Of a stretch of DNA of 33,320 nt, positions 5,845 to 24,826 are shown one piece after another. Every line of letters begins with the position of its first letter. The first letter of the stretch is position 1. The DNA lies in NCBI GenBank assembly GCA_944375885.1, contig CALWBB010000010.1:1-33320 (forward strand). The letters run 5' to 3'. A program made the position numbers and the translations under genes. The stretch comes from an uncultured Merdimonas sp. Its GTDB lineage: Bacteria > Bacillota > Clostridia > Lachnospirales > Lachnospiraceae. Under the pieces are notes generated by a model. The model did no database searches. It saw only the letters and a list, made by a program, of their open reading frames with translations, and had not been told where the DNA came from.

Positions 5845-5915
5845 TCATTGTTCCTCCAATTTCTTCTCTCTATGTGAATATACGCTGCCCTTCCCGCGCA
5901 GCGGTTATTCCAGCA

Positions 5916-6611: not shown

Positions 6612-6629
6612 GCTCTTTCTCCCTTCCCT

Positions 6630-9862: not shown

Positions 9863-9934
9863 CATCCGCTCCTTTCCGCTTTTTGCCCAGCCCGCAGCCA
9901 GCAAAGGCTTCCGCCCATAGCCGCGCGTCCCGTT

Positions 9935-11067: not shown

Positions 11068-11992
11068 CCCTGCCTCCAATCGTCTCCCGAATCACATACT
11101 GAGGCGCATTATTGATACTGATATAGATTCTGCCGATATATTCGCCGATAATCCCCAGTAAAACCATAATAATTCCGCCGATGAACAGGATCACCGTAAT
11201 CAGCGAACTGTATCCCAGCACCGTAGTGAAACCCAGGAGTTTGCGGATCACCATGACCAGGCCATATACAAAGCCGGCGAAGGCGCAAAGAAAGCCCACC
11301 ACTGTGGCCAGCCGCAGTGGCTTCACCGAAAAAGCTGTAAACCCGTTAAACCACAGGGCCAGAAGCTTCCCAATGGAATAGCCTGATCTCCCCTCCATCC
11401 GGGCACGGTGGTGCACGGGCACATTCGCTATATTTTTCGTGCTGCGCAGCACCAGCCCTCCCACATAGGGGTAAGAATTCTTATAGCGCAGCATTTCTTC
11501 AATGATAAATCGTCTGGCTGCATAATAACTGGTGCATTTCAGCGCTTTGGGCTTTCCCAGGAGGATTTCCACCATCTTTTCATTAACCCAGCTTCCAAAA
11601 ATCCGGAAATGCGACTGCTTGATTTCCGGATAGCAGCCATACACCACATCATATCCCTCCCGGATCTTGTCAATCAGAAGGAACGCCTCATCTGCCGGCG
11701 TCTGCCCGTCGTCATCCAGGGAAACGACAATCTCGCCCCTGCAGCTTCTGTATCCCGCCATCAGGGCAGCATGCTGACCAAAGTTACGGGCCAGGGAGAT
11801 ACCTATTACATTCCCAAAGGTATTTACAAGCCTTTGTATCACGCCCCAGACCTGATCCGGGGAATTATCATTGACCAGAATGATCTCATAGCTGTATTCC
11901 GGCCTCTGCGCCATAGTGTTCCGCAGCTCGTCCACCACCCTTTCCAGGGTATGTTCCGAACCATAGCACGGTATTACAAACGATATATCCAT
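11051..11992 (-). CDS. Polyprenyl-phosphate glycosyltransferase, GtrB/ArnC-like (GT2)
   Basis: This 313-residue enzyme should move one sugar from a nucleotide sugar to undecaprenyl phosphate. The GT-A domain covers about 1-220: ISFVIPCYGSE, ILVNDNSPDQ, GISLARNFGQHAALMAG, and the metal site SLDDDGQTP with Asp93-95. These match the GtrB/ArnC branch rather than enzymes that extend polymers. Two C-terminal membrane helices at about 228-252 and 264-289 are the usual anchor. GAGGAAG precedes the ATG. The genes after it encode ArnE/ArnF-like and GtrA proteins, and the two genes before it encode GT-C-like proteins, so transfer, flipping and final use of the lipid-linked sugar are encoded together. 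Confidence 0.92.
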   Translation of the reverse strand: MDISFVIPCYGSEHTLERVVDELRNTMAQRPEYSYEIILVNDNSPDQVWGVIQRLVNTFGNVIGISLARNFGQHAALMAGYRSCRGEIVVSLDDDGQTPADEAFLLIDKIREGYDVVYGCYPEIKQSHFRIFGSWVNEKMVEILLGKPKALKCTSYYAARRFIIEEMLRYKNSYPYVGGLVLRSTKNIANVPVHHRARMEGRSGYSIGKLLALWFNGFTAFSVKPLRLATVVGFLCAFAGFVYGLVMVIRKLLGFTTVLGYSSLITVILFIGGIIMVLLGIIGEYIGRIYISINNAPQYVIRETIGGRDDKTD

Positions 11993-12015: not shown

Positions 12016-13200
12016 CTATGCGGCCGGGATAAAAAAAGTGCTTATGTAATAAATCCCTATGAAAAACTGCAGGATAAAAATCACCCAGCCGCCCAGCACC
12101 AAAATCCGGTCTTTCAGATTCTGGTAATCGTACTCCCGGTTCCGCTTCAGGAAATACCGGAAGGCTGTCACATAGACCAAGAAGGCCGACAGCACATGCC
12201 CCCAGCCAAAATTACCGTGATATCGGCGGTAGCCTGTCTCAGCCAGGGACGCAGCCTCCAAAAAGCCGGCAAGCCACATGAAAAACGTCACCTGTACGTC
12301 CCGCTCTTTCACGATCCGGATATTCGTCAGGACAACGTAAAGAGGAAACAGGAAACCCAAAAGCAGGGAAAAGGGTATGCTGGGTGATGTCGCGCCCATC
12401 ACGTCAAACCAGGCGATCTCAATCCCGCCTTCCGCCGAACTGGATGTTCCAAAGGAGACACCCATCTGCCACAGCATCACGCAGACGCAGGGAATAAAGG
12501 CCGACGCCAGCTGGACACAGAACCCAAAAGCCTTTCCCCTGGTGCGGGCCAGCAAGATCAATAAATAGACTGCCAGTCCCGGAACGGCTATCTGCACAAA
12601 ACTGGGCTTTGCCAGGTTGCACAGCACCAGAAGCCCCGCCAGCAGAATCCAAGTTTTCGCTGTCAGCTTCTTCTGTTCCTCCTCATATTCTTTTAGCAGC
12701 CGCAGAATCAGCAAAAAAGCCGCAAAGGCAAAAGGGCGGACACAGATCGTCGTCGGGTTATGCCAGATATTCGGGGTCACCTGCCCAAGGTATACATTTT
12801 GATTATACCATGGGATATAAAATGGGCCTGCCAAAAGCAGGAACCAGCTAAGGACAGCCACCCACAGCCGTTCTTCTTTACATTCTTTTACCAGATACCC
12901 ATACACCATAATATAGGTCAGAATGTTCAGCAGCCCTCCTGCTATCGCGGATGCCTCATAAGCAGGAGCACGGGAAATTTTCATAATCCCGGCCACCAGG
13001 AATGCCCATAAAGGATAGCCTATCTCATGAAGCACCGCGCCCAGGCCAGAATTCAAAAGCAGCTCCGCATTTTCTGCATGTCCCAGATAATCACTCTCAG
13101 GATTTCTGATCGCACCCATAATTACTTGATAAGTAATCACAAACAGAAATAACGCAAAAAACAGCATTATGATCAGATTTTTCTTTTCACTCTTTTCCAT
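12016..13200 (-). CDS. GT-C-like polytopic membrane protein (putative polyprenyl-sugar transferase)
   Basis: A 394-residue protein with about nine or ten membrane helices. After the first helix (9-30) comes an acidic outer loop, NPESDYLGHAENAELLLNSG, with Asp37 and His41. GT-C enzymes place their catalytic acidic residues in this position and use polyprenyl-phosphate sugars outside the membrane. The same loop ends in a LHEIGYPLWAFL segment entering the next helix. I cannot assign a named family. The start overlaps the previous GT-C-like gene by 14 bases, with AAAGG upstream of the ATG, and the GtrB/ArnC-like gene follows 23 bases later. That context supports a transferase role better than a transporter one. 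Confidence 0.75.
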   Translation of the reverse strand: MEKSEKKNLIIMLFFALFLFVITYQVIMGAIRNPESDYLGHAENAELLLNSGLGAVLHEIGYPLWAFLVAGIMKISRAPAYEASAIAGGLLNILTYIMVYGYLVKECKEERLWVAVLSWFLLLAGPFYIPWYNQNVYLGQVTPNIWHNPTTICVRPFAFAAFLLILRLLKEYEEEQKKLTAKTWILLAGLLVLCNLAKPSFVQIAVPGLAVYLLILLARTRGKAFGFCVQLASAFIPCVCVMLWQMGVSFGTSSSAEGGIEIAWFDVMGATSPSIPFSLLLGFLFPLYVVLTNIRIVKERDVQVTFFMWLAGFLEAASLAETGYRRYHGNFGWGHVLSAFLVYVTAFRYFLKRNREYDYQNLKDRILVLGGWVIFILQFFIGIYYISTFFIPAA

Positions 13201-14782
13201 TGCTCAGCCTTTCATTTTGCAAAACTACAAAATATTCATCTTCCAGAAGAACTTTATGTCCCTTTCTGACAAGCCTGTTTTTCATTTCTTCTGTATGCCA
13301 TTCTCCCTGGGTAATCACCGCATACCCGGCTGACTCATTTATCCAAAAATCCAGCATATAATTAGAGCCGTACCCGGCAGGAAGAACCAAATACCGGAAA
13401 TCCACAGTCCCATAAGTAGCTACCGTATTGTCCCAGGGAGCAGCGTCCGCATCCAGTTTTATCAATTCCTGCAACGTTTCTTTTTCCGCCTCAGCCCTAG
13501 TAAGGTTCTGGGAAACAGCGAACCTCTCATCTGCCATAGAACTGTAATAGCCCCAGATAGCAGTTATCTCAAAGAAGGTAAGGAGGATCAGCACAAGCTT
13601 CAGATTCTCCTTTTTGTCAGCAAAAGCCAGATAAATGGCTCCCATCAGAAGCCCTGTATTGATTCCCCGGCACAGGGTCCATTCCTGCCCTGTGTAAAGC
13701 GCGCAGTAACCGATTAGAAACCCTGTCATGAAAAACGCCGCCTCATAACAGTAAGAGCGGTTCTGCACAAGCCGTCTTCTGTGTTTCAGGATATGCAAAA
13801 GCAGCGCAAACAAAAGCACCAGATAGTTGACAAAAAACCAGGATAAAATCCCATAGGTATCCGAGGCCATAGAGAATATGGAAAATAAATCCACTGTCCG
13901 CAGATTCTGGAAAAAGTTATCCAAGAAAAAGCAGGCTCCCTGATAAAGCCCTCTCTCCGATATTGTCTTAAAAATAGTCGTAATTGTAGAATCCACATAC
14001 GGTGCACAGACAGCTGTAACCATTTTATTTGACACAACGGTCACAACCCCTGTAATAAATATAATCGCCAAAAATTTCCCCGCATATAAAAAGCCGCGTT
14101 TTCTTCTGCTTTGCTTCTCCCTTAGATGAATTCTCCTTAAAATGTACCAGCAATAAACCGGGAGCGCGAGAACGAACACCAGATAAACCTGAATGGCATA
14201 CAGGAGAAACACCCCTAAAACGACACAACTCCCCATTTCCTTCTTAGACAGTTTTTCTGTCGTTCTCGTATGCCGTTCCATCCAGATCAGGCCGCCTGTC
14301 AGGACAATCGCCAAAGAATAGCGCAGCCCTTCTGACATAGACGTCATGGAATATCCGATCGTAATAAAGCTGCCGCTGTATAAAAGGAGCAGCCACAGCG
14401 TCTGTCCTACTGACGGCTTGGTCATAATAACCAGTAGCAGCATTGCCAGGCATAGGAAAGCAATATTGGCCCATGCCATCGACGAGAATCCCCAGCCAAA
14501 CAGCTTCCCAAACAACGCGTACGGCAGGAGCGGGGCTACTCCCCAGGCTCCCCAGGTTCCCACCTGGGCATGCGTTCCATTGTATCCGTAATATCCAAGC
14601 GGATGCCCATATTCGATCACCGCTGAAACCTGATTATGCCAGCCCACCTCGTCATTCCAGGCAGGCACCAGGATGGACAAATCAAATTTATACCCGTTGC
14701 AGAACAGGATACACAGCACCCACAAAAGGGGAATCACGATTAAAAGAGCATACAGCACTATCTGTAGCTTTTTCTGCCTCAT
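13187..14782 (-). CDS. GT-C-like polytopic membrane protein (putative polyprenyl-sugar transferase)
   Basis: A 531-residue protein with about eleven membrane helices and a C-terminal outer domain of about 90 residues. The first outer loop reads VPAWNDEVGWHNQ with Asp44-Glu45, then a Gly- and Tyr-rich stretch (GYYGYNGTHAQVGTWG). Acidic pairs in this loop are the hallmark of GT-C glycosyltransferases of the PMT and ArnT type, though the named family is not clear to me. A Wzy-like polymerase is the main alternative, as these are also polytopic and poorly conserved. GGAGG lies nine bases before the ATG. The gene starts 27 bases after the LuxC-like gene and overlaps the next GT-C-like gene, linking the two modules in one transcript. 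Confidence 0.75.
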   Translation of the reverse strand: MRQKKLQIVLYALLIVIPLLWVLCILFCNGYKFDLSILVPAWNDEVGWHNQVSAVIEYGHPLGYYGYNGTHAQVGTWGAWGVAPLLPYALFGKLFGWGFSSMAWANIAFLCLAMLLLVIMTKPSVGQTLWLLLLYSGSFITIGYSMTSMSEGLRYSLAIVLTGGLIWMERHTRTTEKLSKKEMGSCVVLGVFLLYAIQVYLVFVLALPVYCWYILRRIHLREKQSRRKRGFLYAGKFLAIIFITGVVTVVSNKMVTAVCAPYVDSTITTIFKTISERGLYQGACFFLDNFFQNLRTVDLFSIFSMASDTYGILSWFFVNYLVLLFALLLHILKHRRRLVQNRSYCYEAAFFMTGFLIGYCALYTGQEWTLCRGINTGLLMGAIYLAFADKKENLKLVLILLTFFEITAIWGYYSSMADERFAVSQNLTRAEAEKETLQELIKLDADAAPWDNTVATYGTVDFRYLVLPAGYGSNYMLDFWINESAGYAVITQGEWHTEEMKNRLVRKGHKVLLEDEYFVVLQNERLSNGKE

Positions 14783-14809
14783 TTTCCAAGCCCTCCCACG
14801 TCCTATTTT

Positions 14810-16027
14810 TTACATGAGACTGATTGTCCTGGTCAGCCTCTCATAAAGATTGCAGCCATCCCAAATCAGGTCGAAATCCATCGTCTTCCCTATCGGTACA
14901 ATCCTGTCCACACCGCGGATCCCCGCCTCCAGGAGCGGCAGGAACATCTTCCTGTCCCCGATATAGGATACTGTCTGGCAATGGGTGTCATCGCAGATAG
15001 GCTTCAGTTCCAAGATATCCCGGAAATTATATTCATAAAAATATCCCGAATCCCCCCGGAAATCCATCAGGTTGTCAAAAAGGCTGTCCAGTTCCACGCA
15101 AACCAGCCGGTTATCCCCGCAGCATACCATGTGGATCCCGCTATGCCCTGCAGCCGCAAGATATGCGTTCGTCAGCTTATTTACGCCCTGGATGGGCTGG
15201 AATTCATATTTCTGCCGCACTCTCTCCAAAAGAAAGCCCCAGAAGCGTTCCTTTGCCTGGCCAATCTTGGAACCGCACCAGGCTACCAGCCGCGGGCTGG
15301 TGCACGCGTTCTGGTCTGTCAGATACGTATCATTATAAAAATCATCTGCGATACGGCCCGGATCCTCTGCCGCCATATAAGTATCACTGTCAATCACAGA
15401 CAGCGAATACCTGTCCGCAAAAGTGATTTCTGTGGCTCGGGGAGCCAGCGGGGATTTCCGAAGTTCGGCAATCGTCCGGTCTCCGCCCCAGACGATCCTC
15501 ACATCCGCAATGGAGGAAAGCGCATCGTTAATTCTCTGCTCTCTTCCATAACGCACGAAGCAGATATAAGGTACACAGTCCGGATGCTGCTCCAGCGCCG
15601 CATGGACCGCTTTATTTATAAGCGCAATCTGCGGAAAATCTTTGGAAGGGATGCGTACTATATTCGCGTTTCCCGTCATAAAGCCTGCGGCAAAGGAATA
15701 CGCATAATTCACCGCCACATTGGACGGCGCGATATGGAACGCCACCCCTCTTCCCAGATGAAATCCCTTCCCATTCTTTTCGGTAAAACGCTCCGCCAGC
15801 TTTTTCACAGATGATTTGCGGATCCAGAAAGCAAAGGTCACCACATCGGGATAAAGTCTCGCCTCAGGCATGGAAAGCAACGTTCTGGACAGAGTATTCA
15901 AAAATTCCTGAATTTCTTCCCCGAAGGGTTCCCGCGCCTCCGCCTTGGGCATCCGCATAAGTATTTCTTCATTTCCCGTCAGATACTGAATTCCTTTTAG
16001 CCCTTCTCTATCTAAACTTTTCCGCAT
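14810..16027 (-). CDS. LuxC-like acyl-CoA/acyl-carrier reductase
   Basis: LuxC-family enzymes reduce an activated acyl group to an aldehyde with NADPH through an enzyme thioester. The 405-residue product has the aldehyde-dehydrogenase-like fold: GRGVAFHIAPSNVAVNY near 92-108, which binds the cofactor, SFAAGFMTGNANIVRIPSKD, then DQNACTSPRL with the probable catalytic Cys242. The later WDGCNLYERLTR ending is also family-like. The ATG at 16027 and a GTG at 16036 are both possible; a GGGGGTG lies four bases before the GTG and 13 before the ATG. The gene overlaps the LuxE-like gene by at least 20 bases, so the two are probably made together. No luxA, luxB or luxD genes are present, so light emission is excluded; the aldehyde is more likely a building block. 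Confidence 0.9.
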   Translation of the reverse strand: MRKSLDREGLKGIQYLTGNEEILMRMPKAEAREPFGEEIQEFLNTLSRTLLSMPEARLYPDVVTFAFWIRKSSVKKLAERFTEKNGKGFHLGRGVAFHIAPSNVAVNYAYSFAAGFMTGNANIVRIPSKDFPQIALINKAVHAALEQHPDCVPYICFVRYGREQRINDALSSIADVRIVWGGDRTIAELRKSPLAPRATEITFADRYSLSVIDSDTYMAAEDPGRIADDFYNDTYLTDQNACTSPRLVAWCGSKIGQAKERFWGFLLERVRQKYEFQPIQGVNKLTNAYLAAAGHSGIHMVCCGDNRLVCVELDSLFDNLMDFRGDSGYFYEYNFRDILELKPICDDTHCQTVSYIGDRKMFLPLLEAGIRGVDRIVPIGKTMDFDLIWDGCNLYERLTRTISLM

Positions 16028-17099
16028 AGGTATCACTGCACCCCCGTATCTCAGCGTTTTTCAGCCTGCCAAGCACTTTGAAATATTTTCCCTTCCTGCC
16101 GCAGGGGCAGTCATCCTCACCAAGTATCGTTCCCTCGTCCTCTGTAAGGAGTGAATGTCCCGGGTAAGACTCCGGGAGCGTGGAAACCACCTGGATGATT
16201 CCCTTTTCCCCAAATTCACATTCTGAAAAATCCAAAGGCCGCCTGGTAATGACATCCGAAAAAATGCTGGCATGCAGATGCCCGCACTCGCACTCCATAT
16301 AAATGCAGCCCGTCTGCTCCACCATCCCGTAATAATCATGCACATGGCTTAAGCCACAGACATCCTGCAGGCATTTCTTAAATTCTTCCGGGCTGACCGC
16401 TTCACTGATCAGCTTTTTCCAGCCCCCGCCATGGATCAGGACGCCTTCCGACAAATCAAAGGTGACGCCCTCCTTCTTCAGCCGCACAAGCTCTTTGTAA
16501 AAATGCTGCCAGATCATAAAAGTAAAGCCAAACAGGAAGATTCTCTGCCCCTGGTATTTATCCAGAAATGCTTTCAGCCCCTCCACATCCAGCTTCATAT
16601 CATCATCCAGCGCATAGATCCTCTTTGCCCCGAAAATGGAAAATCCCAGGATCCCGGCTCCCCTGGCCGAAAACATCAGGCGGTTTTTTACCACCGATGG
16701 GCAGTCCAGTATAATCATGGGCATCCGGCTGCTTCCTGTAAAATCAGAGACAATCTTCACCATAACCTTCTGCTGGTTGGCAGAGGTAGTTCGATCCAGA
16801 TAAATTTTTGAGACTGCCTGCCCGGATGTCCCAGAGGATGTCATTGTCTTTACAATCTGATCATCCGGAATGCTTTTGAGTTCCAGTTCCTTAAACAAGC
16901 GTACGGGAAGAAACGGCAGTTCCTTATAGCTGCCGATCTTCCCTCTCTCATATCCCGCACATTTTAACATATTTCCATACTGGGGACAGTTCTCTTTGTG
17001 TTTCTCCGTAAGTTCTGCAAGCCTCTCTGTCAAAACTGCTTCTTTCTCTTCCTTTGAAAGGGAATACGGGCTTCTCTGCAGCATTTCCTCAAAATCCAT
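16008..17099 (-). CDS. LuxE/PaaK-like acyl-protein synthetase
   Basis: LuxE activates a carboxylic acid with ATP, carries it as a thioester on its own cysteine and passes it to LuxC. The 363-residue product has the AMP-binding loop TSSGTSGQAVSK near 88-99, HGGGWKKL, YYGMVEQTG near 270 and a zinc-like ECECGHLH segment. It ends ECPCGRKG-like (DDCPCGRKG), then LGRLKNAEIRGCSDT. In LuxE the acylated cysteine is near the C-terminus, and Cys354 in RGCSDT is the natural candidate. An open frame extends upstream to 17255, but AGGGAG eight bases before the ATG at 17099 and the overlap of the extension with the previous gene favour the shorter form. Working with the ACP and LuxC-like proteins encoded beside it is the simplest reading. 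Confidence 0.88.
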   Translation of the reverse strand: MDFEEMLQRSPYSLSKEEKEAVLTERLAELTEKHKENCPQYGNMLKCAGYERGKIGSYKELPFLPVRLFKELELKSIPDDQIVKTMTSSGTSGQAVSKIYLDRTTSANQQKVMVKIVSDFTGSSRMPMIILDCPSVVKNRLMFSARGAGILGFSIFGAKRIYALDDDMKLDVEGLKAFLDKYQGQRIFLFGFTFMIWQHFYKELVRLKKEGVTFDLSEGVLIHGGGWKKLISEAVSPEEFKKCLQDVCGLSHVHDYYGMVEQTGCIYMECECGHLHASIFSDVITRRPLDFSECEFGEKGIIQVVSTLPESYPGHSLLTEDEGTILGEDDCPCGRKGKYFKVLGRLKNAEIRGCSDTYAEKFR

Positions 17100-17136
17100 A
17101 ATTTGCTCCCTTAGCGCCGATACAGGGTGTACCAGG

Positions 17137-18558
17137 TTACTTATAATACTTTTCCAGTTCCTTGTAAAGTGTTTTCCCAGAATCATTCTTCGGGATGTTG
17201 TCCACCACAACCACCTGGAACGCGGCCTGGTTGAGCCCAGTCTTTGCCACCACAAACCCCTTCACCTGGTCTGCATAAGCCCCGTCTGTCACAAAGAGGT
17301 ACATATGGTCGTCCACGCCGGTGCTGGCGCACTCCAGGTTTTCAAACTTCCCCTTGATCAGCCGGTCAACCTCATCCAGGTTCACACGGTTTCCATAAAT
17401 CTTCAGGAAGCGCTTTCTGCGTCCGACGATATAGTAATAGCCATCCTCATCAAATTGCGCCATGTCGCCTGTCTGGAGAAGGCCGTTCCTCTCATCGCCT
17501 TTTATCAAGTCTTCCCCACACTCCGCATAGCCCAAAGTCACATTTTCCCCTTCATAGACAAGTTCCCCCGTCACATAGGGTTCTGTAATCTCCCTGCCGT
17601 TTACATCTATCAGACGGAATTTCCCCCCGGGAACCGCGATTCCCATGGAACCGCATTTCTCCACAGCCTTATCCGCAGGAAGGTATCCCATGCGGGCGGT
17701 AGCCTCGCACTGGCCATACATAACAATGAATCTCTTTCCGGTACCCGCGGCATATTCTGCAAATTTTTTATGGAGTTCCGGGATCAGCTTCCCGCCGGCC
17801 TGGGTCATAGTCCCCAGAGCCGGAAGATCCATACGGAAAAAGCGCAGCTTGTCCAGCATCTCATAGGTATAAGGCACTCCGCCAAAGGATGTGGCCTTCT
17901 GTTCCTTCACGAATGACCAGAACCCTCTCTCCATCAGGGTTTTGTCAGTCAGGAGAATCGTGGCGCCCACCAAAAGATGGCTGTTGATAATGGACAGACC
18001 ATACGTATAATTCATCGGCAGCGTAGTAATAGGCCGTTCTTCCTGGCCAAGTTCCAGGTATTCCGCAATCTGACGGGTATTCACCTCAATGTTCTTATAG
18101 CTCTGCCTTACAAATTTGGGGCTGCCTGTGGAACCAGAAGTAGTCAGAAGGAGGCCAAGTTCCTCATAAAGGGGATAGGATGTTTCATACCCTGTCCTTA
18201 ACAGGATATAGCCTCTGCTGGCGTAAATCCTCTTCCAGCCTGCTTCCGCTTCGTATCGGTCCGCCATATCCTCCGGCATCCACAGATAAGCTGGGCAGTA
18301 TTTCTCCAAGAGTCCTGCCAGAAGCTCCTGGTCCAGGTGGGCGTTCAGCAGCACCGGGACAATCCCATGCTGTATGAAGGCCGCATAGCCGATTACAGAG
18401 CCTATTGTGTTGCTGCACATGGAAAAAACAAGGCAGCGTTCCCCGATTGCCGACGCAAGCCGCCCTGTCTCCTCCCCAAGCTCCCCATAGGTCAGCTGCA
18501 CCCCATCATCGGAACGCAGCGCTATGTTCCCCGAAAACTCATTAAAATTCCACATCAT
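17137..18558 (-). CDS. AMP-forming acyl/aryl ligase of the ANL superfamily
   Basis: ANL enzymes adenylate a carboxylic acid and pass it to a thiol such as that of a carrier protein. This 473-residue product has all core motifs: the phosphate loop TTSGSTGSPK near 139-148, MYGQCEATARMGYLP (aromatic/Glu motif), GELVYEGENVTLGY, QTGDMAQFDEDGYYYIVGRRKRFLKIYGNRVNLDE, and the C-terminal NDSGKTLYKEL with the catalytic Lys. It is shorter than typical acyl-CoA synthetases of about 550 residues and nearer the size of carrier-loading domains such as DltA. The start is an ATG pair at 18558 and 18555, preceded by AAGTGAG; a GTG at 18567 is also possible. The gene overlaps the ACP gene end, which favours the ACP as its acceptor. 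Substrate unknown. Confidence 0.9.
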   Translation of the reverse strand: MMWNFNEFSGNIALRSDDGVQLTYGELGEETGRLASAIGERCLVFSMCSNTIGSVIGYAAFIQHGIVPVLLNAHLDQELLAGLLEKYCPAYLWMPEDMADRYEAEAGWKRIYASRGYILLRTGYETSYPLYEELGLLLTTSGSTGSPKFVRQSYKNIEVNTRQIAEYLELGQEERPITTLPMNYTYGLSIINSHLLVGATILLTDKTLMERGFWSFVKEQKATSFGGVPYTYEMLDKLRFFRMDLPALGTMTQAGGKLIPELHKKFAEYAAGTGKRFIVMYGQCEATARMGYLPADKAVEKCGSMGIAVPGGKFRLIDVNGREITEPYVTGELVYEGENVTLGYAECGEDLIKGDERNGLLQTGDMAQFDEDGYYYIVGRRKRFLKIYGNRVNLDEVDRLIKGKFENLECASTGVDDHMYLFVTDGAYADQVKGFVVAKTGLNQAAFQVVVVDNIPKNDSGKTLYKELEKYYK

Positions 18559-18781
18559 ATTTCTCACTTAAAATTTCCATTCCCTTTTCAAAAGAGCTGA
18601 AATCAATAATGTCATCTGTGTCCATCATAATGTCAAAGGCATCCTCCAAAGCCGCCACAAGGGTCATGTGTCCCACAGAATCCCAAGCCGCAATGCCAGA
18701 GTACTGGAGACCCTCGGCCTCCTCCGGCGTTATATCAAAAGTCTCTGTAAATGCGTTTACATATTTTTCTTTATTTGTCAT
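18542..18781 (-). CDS. Acyl carrier protein
   Basis: A 79-residue acidic, helical protein with the phosphopantetheine attachment motif AWDSVGHM, Ser35 being the likely modified residue. The surrounding pattern, an N-terminal helix and then a loop, DSxxH and an acidic third helix (VAALEDAFDIMMDTDDII), is that of free-standing carriers in specialised pathways; the fatty-acid ACP usually has DSLDT. AGGAGG lies eight bases before the ATG. It sits between transketolase and ligase genes and overlaps the latter, so it probably carries the acyl group used by the LuxC/LuxE-like pair. Confidence 0.93.
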   Translation of the reverse strand: MTNKEKYVNAFTETFDITPEEAEGLQYSGIAAWDSVGHMTLVAALEDAFDIMMDTDDIIDFSSFEKGMEILSEKYDVEF

Positions 18782-18800
18782 CTTCTTTTCCTCCTGGATG

Positions 18801-19778
18801 TTAACCTAAATTTTGATATGCTTCTGCAATCCTATCTGCAAGATGCCTGGCAGACAGCCCCTGCTGATCCAGCATCCACGCATAGGCGCCTGCCTTTCCA
18901 AAGCTGTCCGGCAGTCCTATGATTTCCAGCCTGGTTTTTTGGTTGTGCCAGGCTTTATACTCTGCTACTGCAGCTCCTAGGCCGCCAATAACCGAATGTT
19001 CCTCAGCTGTAACCACTAGCTTATGGGAATCAAAGGCCTCTTCCAGCGCCTTCTCATCCAGCGGCTTCACGGTACTCATGTCCCAAATTGTGCAGGAGAT
19101 TCCCTCTTTCTGCAATTTTCTTGTAGCGCGCAGGGATTCATATACCATAGTCCCTGTGGCCACAATCGCCACGTCAGTGCCTTCCCTGACCTTCGCTGCC
19201 CTGCCTAGCCGGAAATCATAATCCTCCTTATACACAGGCTGGTTGCCGTTGACACCGGTCAAACGCAGATACGCCGGCCCTTTATGCTCCAGCAGGGCTT
19301 CGACTGCCTTTACAGTCTCTGTACAGTCTGCCGGGGACACCACGGTCATATTGGGAATCGTCCTTGGCAGTGCCAGGTCTTCCAGTCCGTAATGTGTATT
19401 TCCTGCCGTTCCCATACTTACACCGCTGGCAATTCCTACCACTGTAACATCCAGATTCATGTATCCCAGATAGGTGCGCAGCACCTCAAAACACCGCATG
19501 GATGCAAAAGGCGCAAAGGAAACAGCAAAAACCTTATATCCTGATTTCGCCAGTCCGGCAGCAATAGCAATCATGTTCTGCTCTGCAATGCCCACATTGA
19601 GAAACTGCTCCGGATGGTGCTCCCCAAATTCTCCCAGCCCTGCGGAATCTGCCACATCCGCCACAAGCACCATCAGATCCGGGTACTCGTAAGCCAATTC
19701 ATCCAGAACCAGGCCAAAAGTTTTTCTGGAGCTTATCCTCGACCATAAGGCAACATTTTCATTCGAAATATTAATCAT
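18801..19778 (-). CDS. Transketolase, C-terminal (pyrimidine and C-terminal domain) subunit
   Basis: This 325-residue protein carries the pyrimidine-binding and C-terminal domains of a thiamine-diphosphate enzyme. The catalytic Glu is seen in NVGIAEQNM (Glu66). Further on are FAVSFAPFASMRCFEVLR, SMGTAGNTHYGLEDLALPRTIPNM and a C-terminal domain from about 190. It pairs with the preceding gene, which holds the other half; split transketolases of this kind are common in anaerobes. GGAGGAG precedes the ATG, and the gene overlaps its partner by eight bases, so the subunits are probably made in equal amounts. It may transfer a two-carbon unit in the cluster pathway rather than serve the pentose phosphate route, but sequence alone does not decide this. 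Confidence 0.93.
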   Translation of the reverse strand: MINISNENVALWSRISSRKTFGLVLDELAYEYPDLMVLVADVADSAGLGEFGEHHPEQFLNVGIAEQNMIAIAAGLAKSGYKVFAVSFAPFASMRCFEVLRTYLGYMNLDVTVVGIASGVSMGTAGNTHYGLEDLALPRTIPNMTVVSPADCTETVKAVEALLEHKGPAYLRLTGVNGNQPVYKEDYDFRLGRAAKVREGTDVAIVATGTMVYESLRATRKLQKEGISCTIWDMSTVKPLDEKALEEAFDSHKLVVTAEEHSVIGGLGAAVAEYKAWHNQKTRLEIIGLPDSFGKAGAYAWMLDQQGLSARHLADRIAEAYQNLG

Positions 19779-20580
19779 GGCTCAACTCCTCCACCGCCTG
19801 TTCATATTGCGCCTGGGTAAGGCCCGCATGGTGATATTTTACCTGGTTCTCCATAAAGGAAACACCTTTTCCTTTTACTGTATCAGCCACAACCATCCTT
19901 GGCCTGCCGTCCTCTTTTCTCTCTGAAAGTGCTTCATAAATTGCCCCAATATCATGCCCATTGATCTCGACGGCCTCCCAGCCAAAAGAGCGGAAGCTTT
20001 CCGCTATATTCGCTTGCGGGACAATTTGCTCCGGCCCGCCGTCCAACTGGAGGTGATTGCTGTCTACGATCGCGGTCAGATTATCAAGTTTCAGCTTCGG
20101 AGCCTGCATCACAGCCTCCCACACGCTTCCCTCATTACACTCCCCATTCCCCAGCAGCACAAAGGTTCTTGCTTTTGTCCCTTTCTTTTTATCAGCAAGG
20201 GCAAGCCCAATTCCAAACCCCAGACCCAGGCCCAGGCTGCCGCTTGACAATTCAATTCCTATGGCGTCGTTCATCACTTGATGCGCTGGAAACATTCCTC
20301 CATTGTCTTCAAAGGTCATCAGTTCTTCCTTGGAAATGGCACCAATCTCACAGAGGGCCGCGTACTGTACCATGGCGCAGTGTCCCTTGCTGAGGACAAA
20401 GTGATCTCCTCTCCCTTCCCTGTCCAGGATTCCGCAGTAAAGGGCTGCCACAATATCTGCTGATGACAGGGAGCCGCCGATATGGGCTCCATTGGGGCCT
20501 GCATGCAGCGTCATTTCAAGCATATTTCTGCGCATGTTGCGGGCTGCTCCCTCTATGCGTGTGCATAACTCAGTATTCAT
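19771..20580 (-). CDS. Transketolase, N-terminal (thiamine diphosphate-binding) subunit
   Basis: The 269-residue product is the cofactor-diphosphate domain of a split transketolase. Motifs visible are HFVLSKGHCAMVQYA near 60-74 and the diphosphate motif starting GNGECNEGSVWEA near 144-156 and ending IVDSN near 171-175, where GNGE replaces the usual GDGE. The glycine-rich SSGSLGLGLGFGIGLA precedes it. GGAGG lies six bases before the ATG, and the ATG overlaps the TGA of the SDR gene by four bases. Together with the next gene it should form one alpha2beta2-type enzyme. Known relatives include central transketolases and pathway-specific enzymes, and the neighbours here favour the latter. Confidence 0.93.
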   Translation of the reverse strand: MNTELCTRIEGAARNMRRNMLEMTLHAGPNGAHIGGSLSSADIVAALYCGILDREGRGDHFVLSKGHCAMVQYAALCEIGAISKEELMTFEDNGGMFPAHQVMNDAIGIELSSGSLGLGLGFGIGLALADKKKGTKARTFVLLGNGECNEGSVWEAVMQAPKLKLDNLTAIVDSNHLQLDGGPEQIVPQANIAESFRSFGWEAVEINGHDIGAIYEALSERKEDGRPRMVVADTVKGKGVSFMENQVKYHHAGLTQAQYEQAVEELSHD

Positions 20581-21320
20581 ACTTTTCCTCCATCTACTCT
20601 GAGAACCTGTCCTGTCACAAAGCTGCTATTCTCTGACAGCAGAAACACTACCATATCTGCAATTTCTTCCGGCCGGGCCAGCCTTTTCATAGGAATATTC
20701 TGGAGACTTTTCTCTTTTAGTTCTTCCTTCATCTGTCCCAGCATCCCAGTATCTGTCATTCCCGGGGCAACTGCATTTACCCTGATTCCCATCTCTGCCA
20801 GCTCGCTGGATAGTTTTTTTGTCGCTCCAACTAGAGCTGCTTTGCTTGCCACATATGCAAACTGAGCCGGTTCGCCATCCAGGGCAGCCACAGAAGCTAT
20901 ATTTACAATGCTTCCCTGCCTGTTCTTCATCATATTCCTGATAAGCTTCTGCGTTAAAAGCATCGGAGAAAAGAAATTAACCTGAAATACTTTGCGAAGT
21001 TCCTCCTGGGATGTCATAGCAAACAGCCGATTCTCTCCCGTAATTCCCGCATTATTTACAATTCCCCAGATAGGCTCCTTTTTACTTAAAACTGCCTTCG
21101 CACCATTTATCACGCTATCCTCATTCTGCATATCCATGATAACCGGAGCAATCCAGATATGATATTGGGATTCTAATTTCTCCCAATAAGAGCGTGTTTC
21201 ATCATCCACAGTTCTTGCCACTGCCCAAATATTGGCACGATTCTCAGCACATTTTTGGAGAATAGCTTTTCCAATTCCCCTATTTGCCCCTGTGAGCAGA
21301 ATGTTTTTTCCTGCAAGCAT
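20577..21320 (-). CDS. SDR family NAD(P)-dependent oxidoreductase, FabG-like
   Basis: A 247-residue classical short-chain dehydrogenase/reductase. It has the nucleotide-binding TGANRGIG at 10-17, the structural NNAG near 89-92, and the catalytic set Ser143, Tyr156 and Lys160 in NIASVAA and YVASK. The C-terminal substrate region NAVAPGMTDTGML and FVTGQVLRVDGG is also typical. It would interconvert a carbonyl and an alcohol, in this setting perhaps a ketone made by the transketolase, or a ketosugar. The ATG at 21320 follows GAGAGG by six bases and is preferred over a TTG at 21326. It is the first gene behind the internal promoter at 21370-21398 and overlaps the transketolase gene by four bases. 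Confidence 0.93.
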   Translation of the reverse strand: MLAGKNILLTGANRGIGKAILQKCAENRANIWAVARTVDDETRSYWEKLESQYHIWIAPVIMDMQNEDSVINGAKAVLSKKEPIWGIVNNAGITGENRLFAMTSQEELRKVFQVNFFSPMLLTQKLIRNMMKNRQGSIVNIASVAALDGEPAQFAYVASKAALVGATKKLSSELAEMGIRVNAVAPGMTDTGMLGQMKEELKEKSLQNIPMKRLARPEEIADMVVFLLSENSSFVTGQVLRVDGGKV

Positions 21321-21369
21321 ACGCAACCTCTCTGAAAAATTTTTCTAATTTTCTTTCAAACTCAGTATG

Positions 21370-21398
21370 ATTTTACCCGCTATTATATCCAGTGTCAA
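21370..21398 (-). promoter_or_regulatory. Internal sigma-A-type promoter driving the SDR to LuxC block
   Basis: On the minus strand a perfect -35 box TTGACA at 21398-21393 and a near-perfect -10 box TAAAAT at 21375-21370 are exactly 17 bases apart. Transcription should begin near 21363, giving a leader of about 43 bases before the SDR start. It lies in the largest gap of the window, which is AT-rich unlike the flanks. A second TATAAT lies inside the spacer, but only five bases from the -35 box, so it is not the match used. Confidence 0.8.
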
Positions 21399-21435
21399 TT
21401 CATACTCGCTATTTATGTACTAATTTTATCTGATT

Positions 21436-22161
21436 TTATTGATGTTTGACCAGTACATACTGCATTTCACTAATCTGAAATCCAAATTGACGATGCAGAT
21501 GTATAATAGGCGGATTATTAGATGAGACGTGTGTCTGGATTTTTGTATTTCCATGCTGAATACCGGAAATCAGGTTCGCATAAATTGACAAGAAGCCAAG
21601 GCCTACTACTGCCTCATTATTTAATGCGCCCCCAAGTACTGCATCCGATACGCCTCTTCCTTTGTCCTGATTTACTCCAAAGGCCACCGGCAAGTCTTTA
21701 TAGTAACCTACACATAGATGCGCTCCTTGCTGAAGCAAATCTCGTATCCAATTTGCATACCTTCGCCCTGCTGCTTTTGGCCCAAAATGAGGATCAAGAG
21801 CAATTCGGTCAGTACTGAATATACTTCCACTTTCTACTTCCTGCAAAATCTCTTCTATCTGTTTCGCCTCAGCATCCCGTATAGAAATTTCAGGTTCAAA
21901 ACGCCTATATATGGAAGGGAGACCTACATCTTTAGTTTTTCCTTCCAGCCCTATACTCATCTCTATCACCCGGTATCCCTGCTCCTGGGCGCACAGCAGC
22001 AGCTCTGCCGCCCCGCCCGGAATCTTGCATACCGAATAAGGCGTCCTTACCTCAGAGAGTACTGAAATCAATTCTTCTTTATTGTCGGATACTGCGCATG
22101 CAATTTCTGTCACATCCACGCCCAGGTTCCGTTTTTCCCAATATGCGTCTGTAATTTTCAT
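21436..22161 (-). CDS. GNAT N-acetyltransferase, WecD/RffC-like
   Basis: A 241-residue protein resembling dTDP-fucosamine acetyltransferase, which acetylates dTDP-4-amino-4,6-dideoxygalactose in enterobacterial common antigen synthesis. The N-terminal segment YWEKRNLGVDVTEIAC is like the WecD opening, and HFGPKAAGRRYANWIRDLL near 123-141 matches the RFxxxxxxxxYxxWI pattern of that family. The C-terminal half ends with the GNAT-type region TKIQTHVSSNNPPIIHLHRQFGFQ. A short run of aminotransferase then acetyltransferase genes supports the assignment. It could take a different acyl donor, possibly an acyl-ACP from the neighbouring block, which is my speculation. AAAGG-type signals precede the ATG. 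The stop is followed by the internal promoter. Confidence 0.8.
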   Translation of the reverse strand: MKITDAYWEKRNLGVDVTEIACAVSDNKEELISVLSEVRTPYSVCKIPGGAAELLLCAQEQGYRVIEMSIGLEGKTKDVGLPSIYRRFEPEISIRDAEAKQIEEILQEVESGSIFSTDRIALDPHFGPKAAGRRYANWIRDLLQQGAHLCVGYYKDLPVAFGVNQDKGRGVSDAVLGGALNNEAVVGLGFLSIYANLISGIQHGNTKIQTHVSSNNPPIIHLHRQFGFQISEMQYVLVKHQ

Positions 22162-22201
22162 CCTTTCCCGCCTTTCCCTGGCTTTATCATCAGGCAGTCT
22201 C

Positions 22202-23329
22202 CTATTTATAGAAATCCTTTACCTTTTCACAGATCAGATCTATCTTCTCCGGCTCCAGGCCGTAATACATGGGCAAACGAACCAGCCTTTCGCTTTCACC
22301 CGTCGTATAACGGTCTTCCCCGAAAAAGCGCCCATATTTCAAACCCGCCGGCGCAGAATGCAGAGGAATATAATGGAATACTGCCAGGATCCCTTCTTCT
22401 TTCAGATAGGAAATAAACCGTGTCCTTTCTTCCAGATCGCGGCATTTTATATAGAACATATGCGCATTATGTACGCAGCCTTCCGGTATCACAGGCAGCT
22501 CTATTTTTCCTGCATCCTCCAGCTCTTTCAGTTCCTGGTAATAGCGGTCCCAGTTTTCCATGCGGTTTTCATTAATCTCATCTGCCGCGCAGAGCTGCGC
22601 CCAGAGATAGGCTGCGTTCAGTTCACTGGGAAGGTAACTGTCGCCAAAATCCACCCAAGTGTATTTATCTACCTGGCCGCGGAAAAATTTTGAACGGTTG
22701 GTTCCTTTCTCCCGCAGAATTTCAGCGCGTTCGTTATACTCCGGATTGTTGATCACCAAAGCTCCGCCCTCGCCCATGGAATAGTTCTTCGTCTCATGGA
22801 AAGAATAGCAGCCGAAGTCTCCTATCGTTCCAAGAGCGCGTCCCTTGTAAGTACTCATAACGCCCTGGGCCGCGTCCTCGATCACAAGAAGATGATGCCT
22901 TCTGGCAATCTCCATGATCGTATCCATCTCGCAGGCCACGCCTGCGTAATGCATGGCTATCACTGCCTTTGTCTTCTCAGTAATGGCCGCCTCTATCTTT
23001 GTCTCATCAATATTCATGGTGTCCGGGCGAATATCCACAAAGACGAGCTTCGCGCCGCCCAGAACTGCAGACGTAGCCGTGCTGGAAAAAGTATAGCTGG
23101 GCAGGATTACCTCATCCCCCTCTTCCAGGCCACACAAAAGAGCCGCCATATCCAGCGCAGTCGTGCCGCTGGTAGTCAGAAGCACCTTCTGTGCATGAAA
23201 CCTTTCCTCCAGCCAGGCGTTGCACTTCTTTGTAAACGCCCCGTCTCCACATATCTTGTGTGACTCGACCGCTTCTTTAATATACTGTATTTCCGTCCCC
23301 ACACAGGGCGGTACATTAAAAGGAATCAT
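22202..23329 (-). CDS. rffA: dTDP-4-amino-4,6-dideoxygalactose transaminase
   Basis: This 375-residue member of the DegT/DnrJ/EryC1/StrS family is expected to turn dTDP-4-keto-6-deoxyglucose plus glutamate into dTDP-4-amino-4,6-dideoxygalactose. Family motifs are TTSGTTALDMAAL near 52-64, VILPSYTFSSTATS near 74-87, VIEDAAQG near 149-156 and the PLP-binding SFHETKNYS with Lys181. The opening IPFNVPPCVGTE and the SFHETKN sequence are specifically RffA/WecE-like. GGGAGGAG precedes the ATG with seven bases between. The next gene encodes the matching acyltransferase. The dTDP-sugar precursor genes rmlA and rmlB are not in this window. Confidence 0.93.
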   Translation of the reverse strand: MIPFNVPPCVGTEIQYIKEAVESHKICGDGAFTKKCNAWLEERFHAQKVLLTTSGTTALDMAALLCGLEEGDEVILPSYTFSSTATSAVLGGAKLVFVDIRPDTMNIDETKIEAAITEKTKAVIAMHYAGVACEMDTIMEIARRHHLLVIEDAAQGVMSTYKGRALGTIGDFGCYSFHETKNYSMGEGGALVINNPEYNERAEILREKGTNRSKFFRGQVDKYTWVDFGDSYLPSELNAAYLWAQLCAADEINENRMENWDRYYQELKELEDAGKIELPVIPEGCVHNAHMFYIKCRDLEERTRFISYLKEEGILAVFHYIPLHSAPAGLKYGRFFGEDRYTTGESERLVRLPMYYGLEPEKIDLICEKVKDFYK

Positions 23330-23358
23330 TTTCTATCTCCTCCCGTTATTTTAAACTT

Positions 23359-24780
23359 TTAAGGCTCTTTCACTTTCCAGTAACCGTTTCTGGCCGAACC
23401 TATCCTCTCTACTATTCCCATCTCATTCAATTCCTTTATACTTTTTTTTACAGCCCTTGATGTCACACCCAGCTTTTCGGCCATCGCCGCCTGCGTCACC
23501 CTTGGCTCCTCTAAAATCATTTCTATAATTTTTTGCTGTGTCTGATTCACAGTTTTTGGTGAACTTTTTAGTGAACCTTTTGGTGAACTTTGGTGAACTT
23601 CTGAGTAAGAAGGTCTATATAAATTCACTCTAAAACTGTCTCCAATTTCAAGCAATTCAGGTTCTCTGATTCCATATTCTCTACAGGAACTAAACATTCT
23701 CTTAATTCCAGTTCCCCAACTCTCAATAATCTTCATTCTGCTGAACACTTCTGCAATACATCTATTACGAATTTTGGATCCGCCTTCTTTAATCTGTTCA
23801 AGAGTAAGCCCTCCGTACAGCATCCCTGGAGAAGTTATTTCTACTCTGTCATCATACACCGCTACCTGCACACAAGCTTTATCCAAAAAGTTGCGGTGTG
23901 TTACAGCATTCACAATAGCCTCTCTAACTGCTTCTATTGGCAATTCATATCTATCAGATCTTATTAGTCCATTTATTTTCGCTCCCAGATTGATATGCTT
24001 TAATACAAATTCATAGGCTCCTTCAATTTGTTCATACAAAGGACCTTCAAAATCCTTTTTGTCAATAAACACAACTCTTTCTGTACCTTTAAACAGCGCA
24101 CACTGAATTTTAGCGAAGGGAAATATATTATTAGTCAATAAAACAAAAGCATTTGTAGGCACTAATTTTCCTTCCATACTTTTTAGAATTCCCCAATTGA
24201 CCAAATTTTGTACTGTAACATCTTTTACAGCCTCTTTTTCTCTTTTTGTTCCTGCTGCTTCTACCCTATACTTTTTGACAGCAGAACATAATTCTTCGGC
24301 CATCTTTTCATCATATTTCTGCCCTATACAGACCATTTCATCAAATGAACTATTATTTCCCTGCAATTCCAAATCTTTTAGAATCGCTTCATCAGCCAGT
24401 CTTGATGTCCCTGAAACTCTAATGTAGGTGCCTGCTTCTTTTCCCATTGATTTAATATAATAGGGCCTGCCTGCACCTGGGTATATCTTAATCACAATTA
24501 CACTTTTGCCTTGAATGGTATCTACGCTGATATTGGGAAATATTTGCGGATAACACATATCTGAAATAGTGTTGGAAATATTATCCATAATATTAAAAAC
24601 TTCATCTTTATCGACACCTACAACTTTTCGCGTTTTATCATCCACGCCAATAATAAGCTTTCCCCCTGCTGTATTAGCGAATGCAACGATGCTTTTTACA
24701 TATTTCTCACTTTTTTTTGGGATCTCAACTTTAAATTCTATATTTGACGACTCCCCTGCCCTAATTTCATCCTCTAACAT
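23359..24780 (-). CDS. AlbA_2 (Schlafen-like) and GHKL ATP-binding domain protein, putative regulator
   Basis: A 473-residue protein with three parts. An AlbA_2 domain spans about 1-125 (NIEFKVEIPKKSEKYVKSIVAFANTAGG, GKLIIGVDD). A GHKL-type ATPase region spans about 190-395 (EAIVNAVTHRNF N-box, IESWGTGIKRM). A C-terminal winged helix spans about 415-473. Members are annotated as ATP-dependent DNA-binding or regulator proteins, with unknown targets; some are linked to phage defence. Between ATPase and winged helix lies a Ser-Pro-Lys linker encoded by short repeats. Two 60-base lines sampled by eye (23941-24000, 24181-24240) each have 19 G or C, against 29 and 31 in two flanking lines, so this gene was probably acquired. 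AAGGG precedes the ATG. It is the only non-glycan gene in the window. Confidence 0.9.
   Translation of the reverse strand: MLEDEIRAGESSNIEFKVEIPKKSEKYVKSIVAFANTAGGKLIIGVDDKTRKVVGVDKDEVFNIMDNISNTISDMCYPQIFPNISVDTIQGKSVIVIKIYPGAGRPYYIKSMGKEAGTYIRVSGTSRLADEAILKDLELQGNNSSFDEMVCIGQKYDEKMAEELCSAVKKYRVEAAGTKREKEAVKDVTVQNLVNWGILKSMEGKLVPTNAFVLLTNNIFPFAKIQCALFKGTERVVFIDKKDFEGPLYEQIEGAYEFVLKHINLGAKINGLIRSDRYELPIEAVREAIVNAVTHRNFLDKACVQVAVYDDRVEITSPGMLYGGLTLEQIKEGGSKIRNRCIAEVFSRMKIIESWGTGIKRMFSSCREYGIREPELLEIGDSFRVNLYRPSYSEVHQSSPKGSLKSSPKTVNQTQQKIIEMILEEPRVTQAAMAEKLGVTSRAVKKSIKELNEMGIVERIGSARNGYWKVKEP
23559..23601 (-). repeat. Short degenerate repeats in the Ser-Pro-Lys linker
   Basis: On the plus strand four copies of GGTGAACTT or close variants occur at 23559-23567, 23571-23579, 23583-23591 and 23593-23601. 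Spacing is 12, 12 and 10 bases. On the coding strand they read GTTCACCAAA-like units. Three are read in one frame (Ser-Ser-Pro-Lys, Gly-Ser-Leu-Lys, Ser-Ser-Pro-Lys), and the 10-base unit in another (Val-His-Gln). They lie between the ATPase and winged-helix domains. Confidence 0.8.
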
Positions 24781-24826
24781 CTATCTGCCCTTCTTTCGAT
24801 GTTATCTTTTCAGAATACCATTCACA

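Follow-up and report, generated by a model that had tools for sequence, protein, structure and literature searches.

A LuxE/LuxC operon with a split transketolase in an uncultured Merdimonas sp. and its possible role in the N-acylation of dTDP-Fuc4N

We analyzed a 33,320-nucleotide stretch from an uncultured Merdimonas sp. (GenBank assembly GCA_944375885.1, contig CALWBB010000010.1; this whole stretch is called the window here). It carries a tightly packed cassette for a LuxC-like acyl reductase, a LuxE-like acyl-protein synthetase, an AMP-forming ligase, an acyl carrier protein (ACP), the two halves of a split transketolase (TK-N and TK-C) and a short-chain dehydrogenase/reductase (SDR), adjoining genes for the transaminase WecE and a WecD-like protein. 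Our preferred interpretation, to which we give an even chance, is that this cassette synthesizes an uncommon acyl group and hands it over for an N-acylated dTDP-4-amino-4,6-dideoxygalactose (dTDP-Fuc4N). The gene content and families, the catalytic residues, the pairing of WecE with the WecD-like protein, the clade and pocket changes of the transketolase and the co-occurrence of the families rest on data presented below.

Operon layout and recurrence of the cassette

The seven cassette genes are minus-strand open reading frames (ORFs) within 14810–21320, and in the direction of transcription they follow one another as SDR, TK-N, TK-C, ACP, AMP ligase, LuxE and LuxC, with successive intergenic gaps of −4, −8, +19, −26, +37 and −29 nt. 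This confirms the genes, coordinates and intact motifs given in an earlier note on this DNA. The limits that the note set to the cassette were too narrow: the run extends 5′ of SDR into the WecD-like gene and then WecE, so that the receiving sugar had been missed, and it continues downstream to membrane-type and glycosyltransferase family 2 (GT2) genes. From WecE to LuxC the gaps range from −29 to +109 nt, a spacing that suggests co-transcription of all nine genes. A promoter scan of 13000–25000 returned 17 matches against 16.8 expected, and the −35/−10 pair at 21398–21370 counts as no evidence. The nine genes are as follows.

22202–23329, minus strand: WecE/RffA, dTDP-Fuc4N transaminase (NCBIfam equivalog)
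21436–22161, minus strand: WecD-like GNAT protein of 241 amino acids, proposed dTDP-Fuc4N N-acyltransferase (fold match)
20577–21320, minus strand: SDR, FabG-like reductase (PF13561, adh_short_C2, 195 bits; S145, Y158 and K162 conserved)
19771–20580, minus strand: TK-N, transketolase N-terminal half, thiamine diphosphate (ThDP) binding (PF00456, Transketolase_N, 113 bits)
18801–19778, minus strand: TK-C, transketolase C-terminal half with the pyrimidine and C domains and a changed substrate pocket (PF02779/PF02780)
18542–18781, minus strand: ACP of 79 amino acids with a WDS phosphopantetheine site (profile match to solved ACPs)
17137–18567, minus strand: AMP-forming acyl ligase (PF00501, AMP-binding, 132 bits; motifs conserved)
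16008–17099, minus strand: LuxE-like acyl-protein synthetase (PF04443, 177.5 bits; motifs conserved)
14810–16036, minus strand: LuxC-like acyl reductase (PF05893, 86 bits; catalytic Cys)

Residue conservation was scored in alignments of 84 loci and the window, in which only rows that covered 80% or more of the query were used and L018 was excluded. The Ser of the ACP WDS site (64/64 rows), the first Ser of SSGTSG and the C-terminal Cys of LuxE (90/90 each), the Cys of DQNAC in LuxC (95/95), the first Thr of TSGSTG and the C-terminal Lys of the ligase (73/73 each) and the SDR Tyr (68/68) were kept throughout. For the SDR the ATG at 21320 is favoured over the TTG at 21326, the ligase starts at GTG 18567 or ATG 18558, and the LuxE ORF is open from 17255 with an ATG at 17099. 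The ACP had zero matches in Pfam or NCBIfam; a six-row ACP profile retrieves solved ACPs, with a weak top match (E 3.5e-4, over 32 residues) to 2LML, which we take to be GmACP3 of Geobacter metallireducens, proposed for lipopolysaccharide synthesis. A bioluminescence-type fatty aldehyde was also considered as the LuxC product and is disfavoured: Pfam identifies no luciferase among the 28 proteins of the window that were scanned, a search that did not extend beyond the window, and LuxC scores 36 bits, far under the NCBIfam LuxC equivalog cut-off of 750.

To follow the cassette across genomes we used a LuxC profile scan of species genomes, keeping the best 80 of at least 574 relatives and adding five further loci, for a total of 85 (32 shorter than 19 kb and 53 of at least 19 kb). 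L012 and L014, which duplicate L019 and L020, were left out, and the near copies L013 and L020 were both counted. LuxE was present in 84 of these loci, the ligase in 79, ACP in 62, SDR in 53, TK-N in 36 and TK-C in 37, with all seven families in 25. Among the loci of at least 19 kb, ACP, ligase, LuxE and LuxC were complete in 48/53 and all seven families in 21/53; LuxE and the ligase, two acid-activating enzymes, were both found in every one (53/53). As controls we took 40 sugar-transferase-anchored regions of 10–20 kb from the same order, from 60 places outside the window's genome, and at the thresholds applied not one of the seven families turned up in them. The families therefore co-occur beyond chance, and the co-occurrence near glycan genes that the earlier note had proposed looking for is found. 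The family models were trained on cassette proteins with thresholds set by us, 200 bits for the transketolase halves; this cut-off would catch nearly all ordinary split transketolases (TK-N 206–334 bits; TK-C mostly 240–356, one 139) and misses single-chain transketolases (about 140 and 73 bits).

LuxC lies directly after LuxE in 81/82 cases with separate genes, and in 13 more the two are fused in a single frame (L018, L038, L061, L065, L066, L069, L070, L072, L075, L082, L089, L091 and L097), resembling RfbN of Vibrio cholerae. Two LuxC genes occur in 11/85 loci, and in L016, L069 and L082 one LuxE/LuxC pair is ordered SDR, TK-N, TK-C, LuxE, LuxC. In a reverse test starting from the transketolase, cassette-type TK-C (E 1e-100 or better) was found in 12/392 genomes of the order, and in nine of these LuxE and LuxC lie within the flanking sequence retrieved. 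The remaining three are G555, whose region is cut by a contig edge, G465, with a sugar-use operon, and G699, with ACP, ligase and MBOAT; the G699 locus (L196, 8174–15717) runs SDR, TK-N, TK-C, ACP, MBOAT O-acyltransferase, a protein of unknown function and AMP ligase, a Dlt-like layout with a transketolase. In L195 (G573, 5681–7651) TK-N and TK-C are fused in one frame beside ACP, with LuxE, LuxC, ligase and SDR upstream, and the contig of L197 (G586:C14) reads as an inverted repeat of the cassette, probably an assembly artefact.

The search of plasmids matched LuxE in 46 records and TK-C in 819, and the ten best TK-C records are exactly the ten Rhizobium records that also hold LuxE, close relatives that amount to about one event. 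One plasmid of this group carries TK-N, TK-C, a hexapeptide-type acyltransferase, ACP, ligase, a DegT aminotransferase, LuxE, LuxC and SDR within 10 kb, with the SDR on the opposite strand and the ACP being an ACP-sized protein scored as such by our model. On Rhizobium anhuiense plasmid pRA_T24_2 (L186, 7203–19386) the seven families are accompanied by a DegT aminotransferase, an acyltransferase, a GMC oxidoreductase and FabZ, and have a siderophore receptor on one side and ABC transporters on the other; a single glycosyltransferase is annotated there. Plasmids of Deinococcus and Ponticoccus carry ACP, SDR, ligase, LuxE and LuxC, with no transketolase in the stretch shown.

An uncultured Merdimonas and the cultured Lachnoclostridium sp. 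An131, which carries this operon too (L020), are the closest named relatives, and the run from WecE through LuxC is also present in three same-genus genomes, whose LuxC is 80% identical to that of the window. In two of these relatives (L013, 4933–5709; L014, 5301–6077) the SDR is just 44% identical to the window's (20577–21320), with TK-N, TK-C, ACP, ligase and LuxC 79–95% identical, and the SDR alone seems to have been swapped. The window has a Schlafen AlbA_2/RecG-C/HTH protein (23359–24780) between WecE and membrane proteins, in its lowest-GC region (0.40); in L012–L014 WecE comes directly after the membrane gene, without this insertion.

The receiving sugar and the split transketolase

That WecE makes dTDP-Fuc4N is strongly supported by its sequence matches, which clear the NCBIfam cut-offs widely (PRK11706, 634 bits vs 375; TIGR02379, 625 vs 435), and its nearest solved chain bears the same name (563 bits). 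A dTDP-glucose 4,6-dehydratase is encoded on another contig of the genome (481 bits, cut-off 365). The WecD-like protein gave nothing significant in Pfam, NCBIfam or PDB sequence searches. Its AlphaFold2 model (pLDDT 93.4), searched against a library of 350,542 PDB chains, has as its top fold WecD, TDP-fucosamine acetyltransferase (2FS5; E 1.7e-14, TM 0.74/0.80, 15% identity in the fold alignment), followed by a runner-up at E 6.6e-11.

We then asked how these two genes are distributed over the 40 control loci and those LuxC-anchored loci, 72 in number, that span 10 kb or more. The WecD-like family occurs in 17/72 LuxC loci and 0/40 controls. A close WecE (62–90% identical to the window's) is found in nine of the 17 loci with a WecD-like gene, three of which (L013, L019 and L020) are close kin of the window, and is full length in eight; it is found in none of the 55 loci without one, where the best match is 43% over 140 residues. 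In L086 (13489–14624) the close WecE is split over two frames of 192 and 159 residues; the gene may be broken there, or the split may stem from a sequencing error. WecE and WecD-like genes tend to travel together, and for this reason the end product of the operon is probably an N-acylated dTDP-Fuc4N. The presence of the adjoining cassette points to an acyl group other than plain acetyl.

The nearest solved chains to both transketolase halves belong to the split transketolase of Carboxydothermus hydrogenoformans (6YAK for TK-N, 6YAJ for TK-C), which shares the two-chain layout. TK-N is far more a Transketolase_N (113 bits) than an E1_dh (34 bits) domain, and Pfam finds Transket_pyr (124 bits) and Transketolase_C (104 bits) in TK-C. 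In a TK-C tree that also included 44 other split enzymes from same-order relatives, human and Carboxydothermus, a branch with support 98/91 sets the 38 cassette rows apart from the rest as a single clade, with L131 as a long-branched outsider adjoining it. In transketolase (human numbering throughout), E366, H37, H77, K244 and H258 are ThDP and catalytic residues, R318 and S345 are part of the sugar-phosphate site, H416 and R474 bind phosphate, D424 contacts an acceptor hydroxyl and H110 reads the C1 hydroxyl of the donor. The cassette rows, which are one clade so that their counts are not independent, keep E366 in 38/38 TK-C and H37, K75, H77, K244 and H258 in 36/36 TK-N. H416, D424 and R474 are absent from 38/38 cassette TK-C, whereas the 44 other split transketolases keep H416 in 27, D424 in 27 and R474 in 37 and the Carboxydothermus enzyme keeps all three; the R474 column is the least certain, as it adjoins a one-residue insertion in the cassette enzymes. 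R318 is kept in 24/38 and S345 in 16/38, the window having both. The three residues are also absent from the Rhizobium enzyme and from 13 other TK-C of ten reverse-test regions. Judged by these positions, the cassette pocket seems to have become unsuited to ordinary sugar phosphates. In E. coli transketolase, laboratory-made changes at the equivalents of D424 and R474 are reported to shift the acceptors to non-hydroxylated and carboxylated aldehydes, and it is mainly on this account that we propose an acceptor of that kind here.

A proposed pathway and its alternatives

In the pathway that we propose, WecE would supply dTDP-Fuc4N as the acceptor sugar. LuxE would activate a free acid that most likely bears another carboxylate as well, and LuxC would reduce it to an aldehyde, following the chemistry of their families; we infer every substrate, the order of the steps and the role of ACP as the acyl donor. 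A substrate with two carboxylates is suited because LuxE and the ligase both activate acids, so that one end could be reduced and the other reserved for amide formation. The split transketolase would then add a two-carbon ketol unit to the aldehyde, the SDR would reduce the ketone, and the AMP ligase would activate the remaining carboxylate and load it onto ACP, as the adjacency of the ACP and ligase genes suggests. From there the WecD-like GNAT protein, by its fold and its neighbour, would acylate dTDP-Fuc4N at the 4-amino position, and the ArnC-like GT2 with the downstream membrane proteins might attach the sugar to a wall-linked glycan. Succinate as the starting acid, an illustrative guess, would give a 4,5,6-trihydroxyhexanoyl group. 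The conversion of an acid to an aldehyde, its two-carbon extension and an SDR reduction to a hydroxyacyl ornament, as put forward in the earlier note, remain the best reading; its loading of the acid onto ACP before LuxC is only one of two possible orders, and the window operon showed no thioesterase that could free the acid from ACP.

In related loci the transketolase would be replaced by other enzymes that make carbon–carbon bonds, or be omitted. Across 49 loci with enough flank (names taken from one representative per cluster), NeuB-like genes were found in 14, L-lactate-dehydrogenase-like genes in 12, acetolactate-synthase-like ThDP enzymes in 8, FabA/FabZ-like genes in 15 and a 4-hydroxy-2-oxovalerate-aldolase-like protein in one (3/85 overall), and NeuD/VioB or LpxD-like acyltransferases also occur in related loci. 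ThDP-synthase, NeuB or aldolase-like genes are present in 2/22 transketolase loci vs 14/27 others (Fisher p 0.002). NeuB and aldolases of this type use aldehyde acceptors, and the NeuB-like genes may also serve nonulosonic acid sugars. A block of ThDP synthase and NeuB-like genes recurs before ACP, ligase, thioesterase, LuxE and LuxC in L085, L075, L086, L039 and L051. Eleven of the 13 loci with neither transketolase nor a substitute hold an SDR, which is likely the reductase of the aldehyde there. Mapped onto the LuxC tree, the transketolase label shows 16 changes, about as many as shuffled labels do (mean 16.4), so the transketolase moves freely among loci. A broader reading, which we hold tentatively and at clearly less than even chances, is that these loci form a combinatorial aldehyde relay, in which LuxE and LuxC make an aldehyde, swappable carbon–carbon enzymes extend it, and the ligase and ACP hand a polyhydroxy acid to an N-acyltransferase. 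The extenders would be the transketolase adding a two-carbon ketol unit, a ThDP synthase, a NeuB-type enzyme adding three carbons from phosphoenolpyruvate and, rarely, a pyruvate-aldolase type; loci with two LuxE/LuxC modules would perhaps extend twice, and the transketolase clade would have evolved for carboxylated, non-phosphorylated aldehydes.

Several observations weigh against the N-acylation pathway proposed here. Eight of the 17 loci with a WecD-like gene are without a close WecE, and WecE-type aminotransferases as a whole are not enriched near LuxC (29/72 loci vs 13/40 controls, p 0.54). H110 is a His in only 28/36 cassette copies, the window's being one of them. The transketolase of the sugar-use operon (G465, L193) has lost the same three residues, and because it and the Rhizobium copies share the loss, this marks a wider group and not the cassette alone. 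When relatedness is taken into account, the mutual exclusion of transketolase and other carbon–carbon enzymes falls short of significance, with too few independent pairs (7) and a median p of 0.25. The G699 locus has no LuxE or LuxC within 18 kb, so the aldehyde need not come from LuxC. Lastly, a thioesterase directly follows the ligase in 28/80 ligase genes of other loci, the window operon having none, and this arrangement suits a pathway that begins on the carrier protein.

In such a pathway the ligase would load ACP, the SDR would act on the ACP-bound chain, and the freed acid would pass through LuxE and LuxC to an aldehyde that is itself the final ornament (a 'liposugar'), with or without a two-carbon unit. 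We consider this unlikely, if a serious competitor. In lux operons the LuxD thioesterase acts at a comparable step to the one found after the ligase, the FabA/FabZ-like genes noted above (15/49 loci) would fit an ACP-bound chain, and FabG models are among the best NCBIfam matches of the SDR. A liposugar glycan has also been put forward by the Dickeya, Aeromonas and Enterobacteriaceae authors. However, the lux fatty acid reductase (LuxC, LuxD, LuxE) differs from the window in that no LuxD-type thioesterase is among the window proteins scanned, though thioesterases are present in other loci, and a WecD-like N-acyltransferase would use a thioester, not an aldehyde. A somewhat smaller likelihood attaches to the transketolase and SDR making an unusual sugar or polyol for the polymer, apart from an acyl pathway in the same operon. 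The scatter of the transketolase over the LuxC tree implies that parts move independently, and the residue losses shared with the sugar-use operon are in keeping with a separate sugar; against this, LuxE and LuxC flank this transketolase type in 9/12 genomes, a split transketolase above 200 bits is found in 0/40 control loci, all without LuxC, and modules of SDR, TK-N, TK-C, LuxE and LuxC recur (L016, L069, L082, L197 and L198).

The earlier note also raised the transfer of a two-carbon unit by the transketolase directly onto ACP, as done in naphthyridinomycin-type biosynthesis by two-component enzymes with E1 dehydrogenase-type alpha and beta chains. ACP does come directly after TK-C in 14/37 pairs, and G699 has the transketolase pair, ACP and ligase without LuxE/LuxC, but we see a slim chance for this idea: the Transketolase_N over E1_dh preference of the N half sets it apart from those enzymes, the ligase would be superfluous, and ACP tracks the ligase more than the transketolase, being followed directly by the ligase in 47/64 cases and present in 22/24 loci of at least 19 kb that have no transketolase. 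A pentose phosphate transketolase placed here by chance, which the note had named as the outcome that would undo its proposal, is hardly credible. Its catalytic residues are intact, as such a role would need, but the phosphate-site residues H416 and R474 are absent and the same genome has three further split transketolases, all outside the cassette clade; a housekeeping enzyme was rejected on these copies, the altered pocket and the separate clade.

Precedents, polymer-side genes and significance

The earlier note knew of no described glycan pathway with this exact set, a claim that does not stand, as the gene set itself is already in print. In reports on EC1 (2015), D. fangzhongdai (2018), EC2 (2020) and banana strains (2022), whose passages on these genes offer no chemistry, the Dickeya zeae fliA–fliC region carries the luxC-luxE-ligase-tktA-tktB-fabG-acpP families with vioA and maa, as a low-GC insertion near the flagellin gene that is explained as fatty acid and sugar genes, possibly for flagellin glycosylation (PMC4522980, PMC6206727, PMC7575072, PMC8864124). 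Likened by the published gene list, the window has all seven families in one run with an aminotransferase and an acyltransferase adjoining; the Dickeya set differs in being a flagellin locus of a plant pathogen, in gene order, and in having VioA and Maa where the window has WecE and the WecD-like protein. The Aeromonas group II flagellar and Enterobacteriaceae flagellin islands have ACP, 3-oxoacyl-ACP reductase, AMP-dependent/CoA ligase, LuxE and LuxC beside glycan genes, that is, the set minus the transketolase, a word absent from the main texts (PMC7874193, PMC4875605).

For the function, the tetronate pathway of V. cholerae O1 is, by analogy, the precedent. It acylates the perosamine amino groups with tetronate, and a wbeL deletion has no O1 antigen. 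The window has the ACP, AMP ligase, LuxC and LuxE parts of that set as it is generally understood, and differs in its sugar, Fuc4N instead of perosamine. The V. cholerae genes wbeK-O (rfbK-O), with an ACP, an AMP ligase and a LuxC/LuxE-like reductive part, make a hydroxyacyl amide on a 4-amino-4,6-dideoxy sugar, the acyl group being 3-deoxy-L-glycero-tetronate on perosamine; the roles of the other tetronate genes are reportedly due to Morona and colleagues. That set has no transketolase and uses an iron alcohol dehydrogenase rather than an SDR, whereas the window run has no iron alcohol dehydrogenase and an SDR in its place. The second comparison is with WecE (RffA) and WecD (RffC) of the enterobacterial common antigen, matched by the window's WecE as an equivalog and by its adjoining gene as best fold. 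The latter has no significant family-level sequence match to WecD, and WecD uses acetyl-CoA where we propose an acyl-ACP donor. Among the titles listed in our literature searches, the ones relevant to this set were the Dickeya, Aeromonas and Enterobacteriaceae flagellin papers. We found no paper tying a transketolase to an N-acyl group, a weak negative as subscription literature was poorly covered. The proposed mechanism from transketolase to N-acyl group is specific and testable, with a clear rival order.

On the polymer side, LuxC is followed downstream by two membrane-type proteins, a GT2, a small EamA protein, GtrA and two CotH proteins, and further on by VTC, DUF4956, two GT2, a sugar transferase and an LCP protein. 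DUF4956, VTC and the two CotH-kinase proteins are consecutive at 5170–9904, an order shared with L012. The genes next to the cassette are:

13187–14782 and 12016–13200, minus strand: two membrane-type proteins, possible polymer-side glycosyltransferases (position, hydrophobicity by eye and conservation in relatives; no family match for either)
11051–11992, minus strand: ArnC/GtrB-like GT2 (PRK10714, ArnC, 177 bits, under the cut-off of 529), possibly transferring the acylated sugar to undecaprenyl phosphate
10708–11079, minus strand: EamA/ArnE-like small membrane protein, possible flippase part (PF00892, 31 bits; ArnE, 23 bits, under the cut-off of 92)
9935–10363, minus strand: GtrA-like membrane protein (PF04138, 72 bits)

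If the N-acylation of dTDP-Fuc4N proposed here is true, evolution has put an enzyme of central metabolism to use in extending the acyl decorations on bacterial surface sugars. A gene set that is common among Clostridia of the gut and rumen, and whose relative in plant bacteria has been published under the label 'fatty acid synthesis', would then predict new N-acyl groups on surface glycans, give the unexplained plant-bacterial cluster a testable function, and provide a natural transketolase with a changed substrate site. Should the aldehyde relay also hold, these loci would be a polyketide-like engine of diversity, by which gut Clostridia turn central metabolites into polyhydroxy acyl groups.

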